Under the pieces are notes generated by a model. That model was not told the DNA's origin, searched no databases, and saw nothing but the letters and a program-made list of their open reading frames with translations. From NCBI GenBank assembly GCA_025363635.1, contig JANYDL010000056.1:62001-126000 (forward strand): DNA of 64,000 nt. The letters are read 5' to 3'. This document shows, one piece after another, positions 46,080 to 51,327 of the stretch (the stretch's first letter is position 1; each line of letters begins with the position of its first letter). The stretch is from Actinomycetes bacterium. GTDB taxonomy: Bacteria > Actinomycetota > Actinomycetes > Nanopelagicales > Nanopelagicaceae. Position numbers and translations under genes: made by a program.

Positions 46080-46643
46080 GTGAGCCAATACGCAGTGGCC
46101 TTGGGAATTATCTTTCTAGCAAATCTTGTGCCTGCTTTCGCGCCCCCCACATGGTCAATCTTGGTTTTTTTCACGCTTAAACATGATCTTCATCCTTTGG
46201 TGCTAGTTCCTCTCGGAGTCCTAGGTGCGACCTCGGGTCGAGCCGTACTGGCTGTCACCTTCCGCGCTATTCGGGATTGGCTGCCAAAAGGTTATGTCGA
46301 AAATATGGAGGCAATCGGTAAATACATAACGGATCGCTCTGCTCGAGCCTTCGGATTGATGACCTTGTTCTTTATTTCGCCAATTTCTTCGGCACAATTA
46401 TTTGAAGCAGCAGGCATCATCAAGAGGTTCAAGCTAAAACCACTCTTGCTTGTCTTTGCCGTAGGTCGTCTTATTTCCTATTCAATCTATGTTTCGGGAG
46501 CGCAAGCGCTGCAGTCGACTTCACTTGGCGAGGTCATTGCGAAAGATATGACATCGCCAAAAGCGATTGCTGTACAACTCTTTTTTGTCCTTGGCTTAGT
46601 AGCCCTAGGAAATATCAAGTGGGCGAAACTGATTAAACAGTAG
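46080..46643 (+). CDS. Membrane protein of unknown function
   Basis: 187 residues from GTG 46080, preferred because a TAGTCT box lies 7 nt upstream and the first hydrophobic helix then follows at once ([20 protein letters not shown]). An in-frame ATG at 45978 would add 34 mostly polar residues and overlap the murQ start. About five hydrophobic segments. [12 protein letters not shown] and [16 protein letters not shown] suggest a VTT/DedA-like topology, but I cannot name the family. The end overlaps clpC by 11 bases. Confidence 0.68.
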
Positions 46644-49134
46644 GTGTCTCAGTCAGATCACTTGGAGAATCCGGCATTAAAGTCTTCGGCTCACCTGCAA
46701 AAGTAAATTTCGAATCGGTGCCCTCTCCCTGGACATCAACGACAATAATTTCACCGGCTTTAAGTTCTCCAAAAAGAATCTTCTCAGAAAGTGAATCTTC
46801 GATCTCCCGCTGAATAGTTCTGCGAAGTGGTCGAGCACCCATCAATGGGTCATACCCGCGAGCAGCTAGCAATTCTTTTGCAGCAGGGGTGAGCTCGATG
46901 CCCATATCTTTCGCCTTAAGGCGATCATCAAGGTTGGTGATCATAAGGTCCACAATCTGAATGATCTCCGGCTTGGTCAATTGATGGAAGACGATGATGT
47001 CGTCAATACGGTTAAGGAACTCAGGACGGAAATGAGTTTTAAGTTCGTCTCCCACCTTTGCTTTCATACGTTCATAATTGGTGAGCTCATCTTCCGAGTT
47101 AGCAAAACCTAATCCTGCGCCCTTGGAAATATCGCGAGTACCCAAGTTTGTGGTCATGATGATGACGGTATTCTTGAAATCAACAACTCGACCTTGTGCG
47201 TCAGTGAGACGGCCATCCTCAAGCACTTGTAGCAATGAATTGAAAATATCAGGATGTGCTTTTTCAATTTCATCAAATAGAACAACTGAGAACGGTTTAC
47301 GACGTACTTTCTCCGTCAACTGTCCACCCTCGTCATATCCGACATATCCTGGAGGGGCACCGAAGAGTCGCGATGCAGTATGACGCTCTGAATACTCAGA
47401 CATATCTAACTGAATCAGCGAATCAGCGCTTCCGAAGAGGAAGGCAGCCAAAGTACGTGAAAGTTCTGTTTTGCCAACACCCGATGGCCCAGCAAAAATA
47501 AAAGATCCACCAGGGCGTTTAGGATCTTTGAGCCCGGCACGAGTGCGTCGAATTGCCTGAGATAGCGCCTTGATCGCTTGATCTTGGCCAATGACGCGAC
47601 GATGCAATTCATCTTCCATACGAAGTAAACGAGCAGTTTCTTCTTCGGTGAGTTTGAAAACCGGAATACCTGTGGCCAACGAGAGGACCTCTGCAATGAG
47701 TTCCTCATCTACCTCGGTAACAACATCTAAATCTCCAGCTTTCCAGGTCTTTTCGCGCTCCGATTTCTCGGTCATTAACTGCTTTTCCGCGTCGCGCAAC
47801 CCTGCTGCTTTTTCAAAATCCTGACCATCAATCGCAGATTCCTTTTCACGACGAACGCTTGCGATCTTGTCGTCGAATTCGCGCAACTCCGCTGGAGCAG
47901 TCATACGTCGTATGCGTAAACGCGAACCGGCTTCATCAATGAGGTCAATGGCTTTATCGGGAAGGAAACGATCAGAGACGTAGCGATCGGCCAAAGTTGC
48001 TGCGGCGACCAGCGCCGCATCTGAAATTGAAACACGGTGATGCGTTTCGTAACGATCACGCAAACCTTTAAGAATTTCAATTGTGTGCTCAAGGGTTGGT
48101 TCTGCTACCTGAATCGGTTGAAAACGTCGTTCGAGCGCCGCATCCTTTTCAAGATGCTTGCGATACTCGTCCAACGTTGTAGCCCCGATTGTTTGGAGTT
48201 CACCACGAGCCAACATCGGCTTCAAAATGCTGGCAGCATCTATCGCACCTTCTGCAGCTCCTGCGCCAACCAACGTGTGGATTTCATCGATGAAAAGAAT
48301 AATGTCGCCCCGAGTCCGAATTTCTTTAAGAACTTTCTTTAGGCGCTCTTCAAAATCTCCGCGATAGCGGCTTCCTGCAACTAGCGCTCCAAGATCAAGT
48401 GAATATAGTTGCTTATCTTTCAAGGTTTCAGGAACATCGCCCTTAACAATTGCTTGAGCAAGGCCTTCGACTACTGCTGTTTTTCCAACTCCTGGCTCGC
48501 CAATTAAAACCGGGTTATTTTTTGTGCGACGTGAAAGCACCTGCATCACACGTTCGATTTCCTTCTCTCGTCCGATGACTGGGTCAAGCTTTCCTTCGCG
48601 AGCGGCCTGTGTGAGATTGCGGCCGAATTGATCGAGAACTAACGAAGTTGATGGTGTTCCTTCGGCTGGGCCGCCCGTTGTAACAGTTTCTTTCCCTTGA
48701 TAACCAGAGAGAAGTTGGATTACCTGTTGGCGCACGCGCGAGAGATCTGCACCCAATTTTGTGAGCACCTGTGCGGCAACGCCTTCACCTTCGCGGATCA
48801 AACCAAGGAGAATGTGCTCAGTGCCAATGTAGTTATGTCCAAGTTGAAGTGCTTCACGGAGAGAAAGTTCCAGGACCTTCTTCGCACGAGGGGTGAAGGG
48901 GATGTGTCCACTAGGAGCTTGCTGACCTTGGCCGATGATCTCTTCAACCTGCGAGCGCACCGCCTCGAGCGAGATTCCTAACGACTCAAGTGCTTTAGCG
49001 GCAACTCCTTCTCCCTCATGGATGAGGCCCAGAAGGATGTGCTCCGTGCCAATGTAATTGTGGTTCAGCATGCGTGCTTCTTCTTGAGCGAGAACGACGA
49101 CTCGCCTTGCTCTATCGGTAAAGCGCTCAAACAT
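46633..49134 (-). CDS. clpC: ATP-dependent Clp protease ATP-binding subunit ClpC
   Basis: AAA+ unfoldase that feeds ClpP. 833 residues: two N-terminal Clp repeats (about 1-145), first AAA module with Walker A GEPGVGKT, a UVR-type middle region ([21 protein letters not shown], key part DGQDFEKA), and a second AAA module with [12 protein letters not shown] and [19 protein letters not shown] (key part [10 protein letters not shown]). The C-terminal D2 domain ends in an acidic tail. ATG 49134 follows a GGGG at about 11 nt. Likely monocistronic. Confidence 0.97.
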
Positions 49135-49164
49135 GGCTCAAACCCCTTTTCTTCTACTCTTCTA

Positions 49165-49194
49165 AGCCTAATGTAATAGGTAAAGAAGCCTCAA
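49165..49194 (-). promoter_or_regulatory. Candidate clpC promoter
   Basis: On the minus strand TTGAGG (49194-49189), 18 nt, then TAGGCT (49170-49165). A start site near 49158 would give a leader of about 24 nt carrying GGGG before the clpC ATG. No obvious ClgR or CtsR box was recognised. Confidence 0.5.
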
Positions 49195-49249
49195 TTACCT
49201 CTGCTCTAACCTTGAATCTTCGGAATTTATGCCCGACAGAGATGTCTAC

Positions 49250-49334
49250 AGAATTTTGAGCTATTCCTTCGTGCTCAGAAATTCAGAGAATTTTGAGCTA
49301 CTCCTTCGTGCTCAGAAATTCAGAGAATTTTGAG
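49250..49334. repeat. Tandem 37-bp repeat, each unit a hairpin
   Basis: Unit 1 at 49250-49286 and unit 2 at 49287-49323 differ at one base (T/C in the loop); an 11-base partial third copy (49324-49334) lies inside the end of the argA-like gene. Each unit folds: GAATTT-TGAGC pairs with GCTCA-GAAATTC with one bulge, loop about 11 nt. No T-run follows in either direction. The region 49135-49249 otherwise holds the clpC promoter. Confidence 0.8.
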
Positions 49335-49814
49335 CATTCTGGTATTTCCCAGCGTATTCGGCTTCACACTCTCAAGGTCGAGGAATTCAGCGACACCAGT
49401 GTCATACGAATGAAGAAGTTGGCTAAATATCTCTGGCTCAACTGGAGTTCCTTCTATTTCCTCAAAGCCATTGCGGCCAAAGAACTCGGTCTCAAATGTC
49501 AGACAAAAAATGCGCTTCACGCCAATCGCTCCTGCCCTCGCCATGACAGCTTCAAGGATCTTTTGTCCCACTCCTTGGCGTCGAATATGCGGGGAGACTG
49601 CAACCGTTCGTATCTCTGCAAGGTCTTCCCAAAGGACATGAAGAGCGCCGCACCCAACAACTTCACCATCTTCAATCGCGACCGTAAACTCTTGCACGCT
49701 TTCGTACAAAGTTACGGTCTCCTTTGAAAGCAAAAGTCTTTGCACGGTGTAAGTATCAATCAGCTTTCGAATGCCTTTAACATCACTTGTACGTGCAGAA
49801 CGAATCTCGATCAT
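49320..49814 (-). CDS. argA: Amino-acid N-acetyltransferase (short ArgA-type GNAT)
   Basis: Likely makes N-acetylglutamate for arginine synthesis. 164 residues from ATG 49814, one base after the lysS stop (TAAAATG); a TTG at 49823 is less likely. GNAT features: EIRTVAVSPHIRRQGVGQKIL with the acetyl-CoA loop, FETEFFGRNGFEEIEG, and an opening IRSARTSDVKGIRKLID as in the stand-alone actinobacterial ArgA (Rv2747-like). No kinase domain. The last 15 bases lie in the 37-bp repeat array. The family assignment is firm; the amino-acid substrate is inferred. Confidence 0.8.
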   Translation of the reverse strand: MIEIRSARTSDVKGIRKLIDTYTVQRLLLSKETVTLYESVQEFTVAIEDGEVVGCGALHVLWEDLAEIRTVAVSPHIRRQGVGQKILEAVMARAGAIGVKRIFCLTFETEFFGRNGFEEIEGTPVEPEIFSQLLHSYDTGVAEFLDLESVKPNTLGNTRMLKIL

Positions 49815-49815
49815 T

Positions 49816-51327
49816 TTAATCAATCTCGGGTTTTACAAAAGGAAAGAGAATAGTCTCACGGATACCTAAGCCTGTGAGGGCCATCAAAAGACGATCTACT
49901 CCCATACCTAGTCCACCCATAGGAGGCATTCCATATTCCATAGCACGTAAGAAATCCTCGTCCACGCGCATCGCTTCGACATCGCCTTTAGCACCGAGTC
50001 GCGCCTGTTCTACCAATCGTTCGCGCTGCACAACTGGGTCAATCAGTTCTGAGTATCCAGTCCCTAGTTCGAAGCCATCAACATAGAGATCCCACTTTTC
50101 GACCACACCGGGAATTTCTCTATGACCGCGCACCAACGGTGCATTATCGATTGGAAATCCCATTACAAAAGTAGGTTCATTCAATTTTCCAATGGTGACG
50201 CGCTCAAAAATTTCCTCGGCAAGTTTTCCCTGAATCCAATTCGGATCAACCTTCATTCCTAACTTTTCTGCAATCTTCCGCAACTCAGCAATGGAAGTTA
50301 ATGCAGTTACTTCCTCACCGACCCCTTCTGAAATTGCCTCATAGAGAGAAATTTCGCGCCACTTCCCACCAAGATCCGATTCGCGTCCATCGTGGTGACG
50401 CACAATATGTGAGCCAAAGATATTCAAGGCGGCATCCTGAACCAAAGAACGTGCAAGGTCTGCTTTGGTTCGCCAATCTCCGTAGGCCTCATAACTTTCG
50501 ATCATCGCAAATTCGGGAGAATGTGATGAGTCAGCACCTTCATTGCGAAAATTCCTATTAATCTCAAAAACTCTATCTATTCCACCAACAACACATCGTT
50601 TTAGAAAGAGTTCCGGCGCAATTCGCAGAAAAAGATCTATGTCATAGGCATTGCTGCGCGTTTTAAATGGCCGAGCAGCTGCTCCTCCTGGCTGAACTTG
50701 CAGCATGGGCGTTTCTACTTCAAGGTATTCACGAGAGTGAAAAGTTTCCCGCAAGGAGCGCATTACCGCAGGACGAAGTCGGGCGATGCTTCTGGCCTCT
50801 GGCCGCACAATGAGATCGACGTAACGCATTCGCACGCGAGTCTCCTCTGACATCGGCTTATGGTCGTTTGGCAAAGGACGTAGGGCTTTCGCAGCTAGAG
50901 CCCAACTTGAAGCAAGAATCGAGAGTTCTCCACGTTTCGAGGTAATGATCTCCCCGGTAACCGAGACCATATCTCCGAGGTCAATATCTGCTTTCCACGC
51001 TGCCAGTGAATCTTCACCTACTTTGTCGAGCGAGAACATGGCTTGTAATTCAGTTCCATCACCTTCGCGCAAAGTCGCAAAGCATAGTTTCCCGGTGTCT
51101 CGTTTGAAGATAATTCTTCCAGCAACGCTCTCTGTATCTCCCGTGGCAACATCTATTTCGAGATTGCTGTACTTTTCGCGAATCTGCGATAAAGACTTAG
51201 AACGTGGAACGTTTACAGGGTATGGATCCAGACCTCTCTCGATATACCCAGAGCGCTTATCACGACGGATGCGCAACTGCTCGGGCAGGTCGTCCTCAAT
51301 TTCGAGTGGAAGATTATTCTCAGACAT
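49816..51327 (-). CDS. lysS: Lysyl-tRNA synthetase, class II
   Basis: 503 residues. OB-fold anticodon domain about 60-160 ([19 protein letters not shown]), then the class II core with motif 2 [29 protein letters not shown] and motif 3 [16 protein letters not shown] near the C-terminus. ATG 51327 has no Shine-Dalgarno; a TAGACT box ends 9 nt upstream. Followed within one base by the argA-like gene. Confidence 0.96.

Follow-up and report, generated by a model that had tools for sequence, protein, structure and literature searches.

The argA-end array and its hairpins

The window analysed here, a stretch of 64 kb (positions 62001-126000 of contig 9), belongs to a genome of 104 contigs and 1.85 Mb. 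Its minus strand carries, in this order, lysS (49816-51327), an argA-like gene (49320-49823) and a clpC-like AAA+ ATPase gene (46633-49134), the last of these 185 nt past the argA stop. The argA-like gene encodes a single-domain amino-acid N-acetyltransferase (NCBIfam PRK07922) and matches NF005921 over residues 3-167 with 265.5 bits (cut-off 180). The ATPase gene exhibits Clp-family matches (ClpB, ClpA and others) that all lie under their cut-offs, and the name clpC is our own judgement.

At the end of argA lies an array of 86 bp (49250-49335, strand not assigned), composed of two 37-bp units (49250-49286 and 49287-49323) and the start of a third, AGAATTTTGAGC (49324-49335). The two units are identical except at their position 15, which is T in the first (49264) and C in the second (49301). 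Direct reading and TRF thus agree with a previous reading of the sequence only, which had described two tandem 37-bp units with a one-base difference; the third start, given there as 11 nt, measures 12 nt. This partial copy is coding, as had also been proposed, because the stop codon TGA of the argA-like gene occupies 49320-49322 on the minus strand. In the 64-kb window TRF reports this array alone at a score of at least 40 (period 37, 2.5 copies, 94% matches, score 166). With head-to-tail units of tens of base pairs, it fits the description of a minisatellite. A 34-nt unit pattern (up to 3 mismatches) gives 2 matches in the window and 0 in 100 dinucleotide shuffles.

All elements of the array are read on the minus strand. 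The final 16 nt of argA including the stop codon (R1, 49320-49335) contain the partial third copy. The gene-proximal unit (49287-49323) is divided into L1 (49310-49321), a loop (49299-49309) and R2 (49288-49298), and the second unit (49250-49286) into L2 (49273-49284), a loop (49262-49272) and R3 (49251-49261). The order along the argA mRNA is therefore R1 - L1 - loop - R2 - L2 - loop - R3, the L arm being a partial reverse complement of R.

Each 37-bp unit forms an 11-bp stem that has a single bulged base and encloses a loop of 11 nt (z from -2.4 to -3.7 over the two strands), which bears out the stem of about 11 bp with one bulge noted before; two extra pairs are possible inside the loop of the second unit. 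A tighter hairpin, absent from the sequence-only reading, is formed across the argA stop by R1 and L1 (49310-49335, minus strand), where the coding end 49325-49335 pairs with 49310-49321 on the transcribed strand. It has 11 bp, one bulge and a 3-nt loop, TCT (-7.9 kcal/mol, z -3.4). Each L arm can thus pair either with the preceding R, through a 3-nt loop, or with the following R (-9.4 and -11.9 kcal/mol on the minus strand for the two units). On the minus strand, a 116-nt stretch that contains the two units gives a single nested structure (-31.6 kcal/mol, z -2.5), with R1-L2 as the outer and L1-R2 as the inner stem. Among 328 stops of the genome's own sequence, taken from open frames of at least 150 codons and so including frames that are not genes, the argA stop has the top stop-spanning hairpin score (10; next 8). 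A weak stop-spanning hairpin is not rare, since 8 of the 328, argA among them, score 7 or more. Rfam covariance models give no match up to E = 1 in 48900-49900. Neither a T-run, already reported as missing, nor a terminator-like match is found at the array, which does not have the form of a canonical intrinsic terminator, in which a T-run follows a G+C-rich hairpin.

We also searched 343,854 bases of the same genome (the window and 20 further stretches) for arrays of period at least 15 and score at least 50 that cross no long open frame. One other was found (L154:17691-17736, contig C13), in which a 23-bp unit occurs twice, flanked by a tRNA-like stretch, recognized by eye, and a T-rich run; the sample contains no further noncoding array of this type. 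Long open frames at three contig starts (L155:195-1817, L157:9-1192 and L154:13-459) contain in-frame repeats whose units look collagen-like by eye.

The argA-clpC junction in related genomes

The argA-like gene is present in all 21 genomes of the genus, and all 21 junctions were read. Four exhibit the R-L-loop-R arrangement and 17 have no unit. The window genome (G000) has two units, while G005 (ArgA identity 78%) has three of 33 bp with arms equal to its own gene end, its three further R copies matching that end at 16, 15 and 16 of 16 positions. G003 (ArgA 92%) and G004 (ArgA 82%) have one unit each, with a decayed R2 (14/16). In a tree of ArgA, ClpC and LysS pieces, G000, G003, G002 and G005 are grouped (support 0.95), and G004 is placed nearby with weak support. 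G002 (ArgA 89%), near the window genome in this tree, has just 4 nt from the argA stop to the conserved box upstream of clpC. With one genome per species, the unit count thus differs across species from 0 through 1 and 2 to 3, as expected for the slippage-prone locus that had been suggested. The repeated arm of each carrier equals its species' own argA end, exactly or in decayed form, in agreement with the proposal that the array grew from the end of the gene.

Strong folding around the argA stop by means of this element is limited to G000 (z -4.0), G004 (z -3.2) and G005 (z -5.2) among the 21. The stop region of G003 gives z -1.3, and that of G013 gives z -2.95 from a different dyad. Of 141 junctions, 108 retain the clpC upstream box, GGGCATAA (49227-49234, minus strand), and 111 retain GGCATAA. 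The box resembles a promoter or regulatory element of clpC, and some members of the genus, G013 for example, have it within an inverted repeat (CTAGATATGG...CCATATCTAG).

A wider set of 162 distinct junctions contains seven with a second gene end at 14 to 16 of 16 positions, always 17-22 nt past the stop. The carriers are G000, G003, G004 and G005, together with G231, L054 (G287 by coordinates) and G281, which belong to a second genus of the family, g16. The next-best second gene end within 150 nt reaches 12, in one outgroup, and all others at most 11. Shuffled queries reached 14 once in 3240 (162 junctions), with a maximum of 13 in 2260 for the first 113 junctions. The set is partial: the argA gene was found in 264 of 296 family genomes, but junction places come from the best matches only, so that the 60 and 19 added junctions lean to sequences closest to the window, and loci L032-L090 were taken in regardless of family. 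Among the 675 stops of the window genome, three have a second gene end of at least 14/16 (argA, one in a repetitive gene and one with the copy 104 nt away). Of the 1512 stops in other loci, which are enriched for the lysS-argA-clpC region outside the genome itself, five reach 14/16; all are argA ends, one being the same genome again. Both counts are based on open frames of at least 100 codons and so include non-gene frames. Noncoding copies of a gene end are accordingly rare at other stops.

Within g16, G281 has a period of 37 with two alike units, G215 has a shorter second copy of 10 nt, G211 has an L arm without a second copy, and the L arm of G245 is non-matching. G211 and G245 have no extra unit, and next to them the state of G281 looks like a recent duplication. 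The g16 carriers fall within a 15-member group of the ArgA tree (support 0.96) in two clusters, G281 with G245, G211 and G215, and L054 with G231. Fitch parsimony requires 6 changes for the presence of R2, equal to the minimum over 500 shuffles (mean 7.9). The tree therefore does not separate an ancient unit that was lost many times from one that was gained repeatedly. The G281 junction, used as query against the DNA of the 296 family genomes, returns G281, G215, G211 and G245 at E ≤ 2.5e-11; the next match (G107, L279, E = 9.9e-5) does not look like an argA end and was discarded. The same search with the window junction returns the array, G003 and G004 and misses G005, many weaker matches spanning query positions 70-106 alone, that is, the argA coding end.

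The arms follow the end of their own gene. CTC is accompanied by GAG in G000, G003, G004 and G215, and CTG by CAG in G005, G281 and G211, both CTC and CTG being leucine codons. G245 is the exception, having CTC with CAG, and its stem no longer folds. The five R1-L1 pairs of the outer stem GCTNA/TNAGC are kept in 9 of 10 hand-picked rows (with a bulge in G231 and L054), a rate that is biased because the rows were chosen for a readable L arm. Two pair types occur at one outer-stem position of these ten related rows. The arms were read by eye, as the MAFFT alignments A1 and A2 misplace the L arm in some rows. We take the paired change as an indication and not as formal covariation. Within 26 nt of the stop, 14 of the 162 junctions contain 5 nt exactly complementary to the gene-end arm, against 3.4 by shuffling; 6-nt complements number 3 (0.9 expected) and 7-nt complements 1 (0.2 expected), counts that treat related junctions as independent, which they are not.

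Origin of the array

The array is, in our view, probably a single-locus gene-end minisatellite under weak selection or none; a quasi-palindrome that spans the argA stop would have given rise to it through template switching and slippage. Template switching makes hairpins and paired changes, as stated in PMC8794818. R, the last 16 nt of argA, and L, the bases just past the stop, would constitute the quasi-palindrome across the stop codon. Short-range template switching at the replication fork could make or mend the inverted arm, so that the two sides of the stem would be altered in a single step. The short direct repeats R-R would then allow slippage, assisted by the hairpin, to duplicate R-L-loop or to remove whole units, and later units would decay or get lost. 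Switching and slippage would account for arms that track the host gene, near-identical units, variable copy number and decayed units. Copies and gene end are indeed alike within a species and different between species. The array resembles the template-switch hairpins described in PMC8794818 in having an arm complementary to the adjacent sequence and stem sides that appear, in the chosen rows, to change in step; it differs from them in that the quasi-palindrome extends across a stop codon and has also given rise to tandem copies.

Several observations speak against a purely mutational origin. Pairing is not preserved in every case, since G245 departs from the rule, and in G231 and L054 the arms pair only with a bulge. 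The loop CGAAGGA is common to the window and G281, across two genera. The filler sequences of G004 and L054 resemble each other (p about 0.01, without correction for the 15 comparisons made); the remaining four comparisons that involve L054 give p from 0.04 to 0.24. In addition, the copies share one starting base within the gene end. Fixed ends of this kind are not expected from plain slippage, and the unit may therefore be old or kept by selection. The constant copy start and the shared CGAAGGA-like loop are left unexplained by switching and slippage; an old unit with losses, or selection, may explain them. A selected RNA role is not needed by the mutational origin, though it could overlie it. 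A literature search on this argA-clpC locus found no paper, which is no proof of absence.

The foremost alternative is that the stop-spanning hairpin, sometimes doubled, is a selected RNA element, which would either end the lysS-argA transcript, as an I-shaped terminator lacking a U-run, or shield the 3' end of this transcript, and in this way separate it from clpC. We regard it as possible but rather unlikely. In its favour, the stem across the stop is retained through a double change (CTC/GAG and CTG/CAG) in both genera, and the argA stop ranks first among the 328 stops for such a hairpin. According to a section of PMC12288462, I-shaped terminators predominate in Mycobacterium tuberculosis and lie within 50 bp of the stop, and the argA hairpin is likewise U-less and right behind a stop codon. 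Unlike them, it occurs in a minority of relatives and has an AT-rich stem. The same source, in the parts concerned, also describes mycobacterial intrinsic terminators as scarce and Rho-dependent ending as dominant, and it cites one title in which the U-tract is dispensable and one in which it is required. The argument that the missing T-run makes termination doubtful is weaker than it was put before: the T-run is absent, but U-less terminators close behind stops have been claimed, and disputed, for mycobacteria. Most relatives lack the element, and G002, close to the window genome, leaves only its 4 nt for it. Since strong folding by the element is limited to 3 of the 21 genus members, it is unlikely that argA transcripts generally require it for their termination. 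Moreover, a change in the gene followed by template switching gives the same pairing with no selection. A local role of the hairpin as a candidate terminator or 3'-end protector is possible. A further reading, in which changes of the late argA leucine codon (CTC or CTG) are tied to changes past the stop, appears to us improbable.

We hold it very unlikely that a site-specific recombinase acting at the argA 3' end left the repeat as a scar or uses it for attachment; such an enzyme would restore the gene end and leave a displaced copy. Integrases act likewise at the ends of tRNA genes. The copies start at the same gene-end base, 17-22 nt on, and the 34-bp inverted-repeat unit may resemble a recombinase core site. 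Against this, clpC starts less than 250 nt from the argA stop in 85 of 89 loci (L002-L090), which leaves no room for an element (the exceptions being 642 nt in L029 and an unplaced clpC in L026, L076 and L078), and the arms follow the host gene end. A viral attachment site was considered and rejected: a first pattern scan of viral contigs gave one match (L183), in an unrelated 154-codon frame without repeat, a second gave none, and a scan of viral contigs for the encoded argA product found no relative. An assembly duplication of the metagenome-type assembly is likewise very unlikely, even with 104 contigs, because the two copies differ by one base and relatives share the arrangement, having one to three units at the same place; the array is also just 86 bp.

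Dispersed repeats and related systems

The palindromic unit lies behind a coding region, and an early stage of a mobile palindromic repeat had been suggested. REP elements of the GTAG and CGTC families are 20-40 bp palindromes found mostly downstream of coding regions, as a part of PMC3733652 describes, a likeness that the array shares; the word "actinobacteria" does not occur in the main text of that paper. A DNA search of the window genome with the 106-nt array region, a check proposed along with the suggestion, gives a single match at E ≤ 10, the array itself; there is no second place, instead of the many dispersed copies of a REP family. The loop pattern (up to 2 mismatches) has 8 matches in this genome, 2 of them in the array, compared with 5 for the reversed control. 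In six genus genomes, 30 matches are listed, of which 3 are array copies and the 27 others were examined; of the 25 that lie outside arrays, one (in G002) has an exact stem of 5 bp in its flanks and the others have at most 4 bp, so none is comparable to the array. The R pattern with 2 mismatches gives 5 matches beyond the array in the window genome, against 1 in the control; inspection by eye of the following 50 nt revealed no second copy or array at these 5. We thus rejected dispersed copies of the unit, the pattern matches being the array and scattered weak ones near the control level, the R pattern excepted. The REP-associated Y1 transposase (PF01797, Y1_Tnp) is found in 0 of 5 genomes searched, none of them fully complete (controls matched in 5 of 14).

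Family member G033 (genus g14) possesses a 19-nt hairpin repeat, TGAGCGGCGAGTYSCCTCA, at dispersed places and frequently as tandem copies with a 22-bp spacing, for example between argA and clpC (L028) and at about 1500-1586 of L184. With up to 1 mismatch it has 148 matches in G033, where the reversed control has 1, and 0 in the 295 remaining genomes of the family; its CC form with up to 2 mismatches has 98. A single 19-mer folds weakly (z -0.6), and Y1_Tnp was not found in G033. This repeat is a species-specific REP-like family without visible transposase.

That the argA array is itself an early REP-like mobile palindrome is very unlikely, despite its palindromic form and the G033 array in the same junction, given its single place, the loop matches with flanking stems of 5 bp or less, the lack of Y1_Tnp matches in the 5 genomes searched, an arm that changes with the host gene, and the different sequence of the G033 unit and its absence from the other 295 genomes. 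The array is unlike REPs in being low-copy and in having no Y1 transposase found in the 5 genomes.

The mycobacterial interspersed repetitive units (MIRUs) lie between genes. MIRU/VNTR repeats measure 46-101 bp, and 12 of 41 loci are variable, according to an excerpt of PMC3914561. The array is similar as a short tandem repeat of an actinobacterium, although MIRU copy number, in that excerpt, varies between isolates and that of the array between species; and, unlike MIRUs with their 41 scattered loci, the array unit occurs at one locus, measures 33-38 bp and is copied from the end of the host gene.

As a probable gene-end minisatellite, the argA array forms part of a natural series (no unit, one decayed, one, two and three units) at one orthologous site, with arms following the host gene. 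The practical value of this finding is small. The series could let the birth of a hairpin by template switching and its growth in tandem be followed step by step. It also serves as a warning that gene-end repeats and covarying stems may stem from the mechanics of mutation alone.
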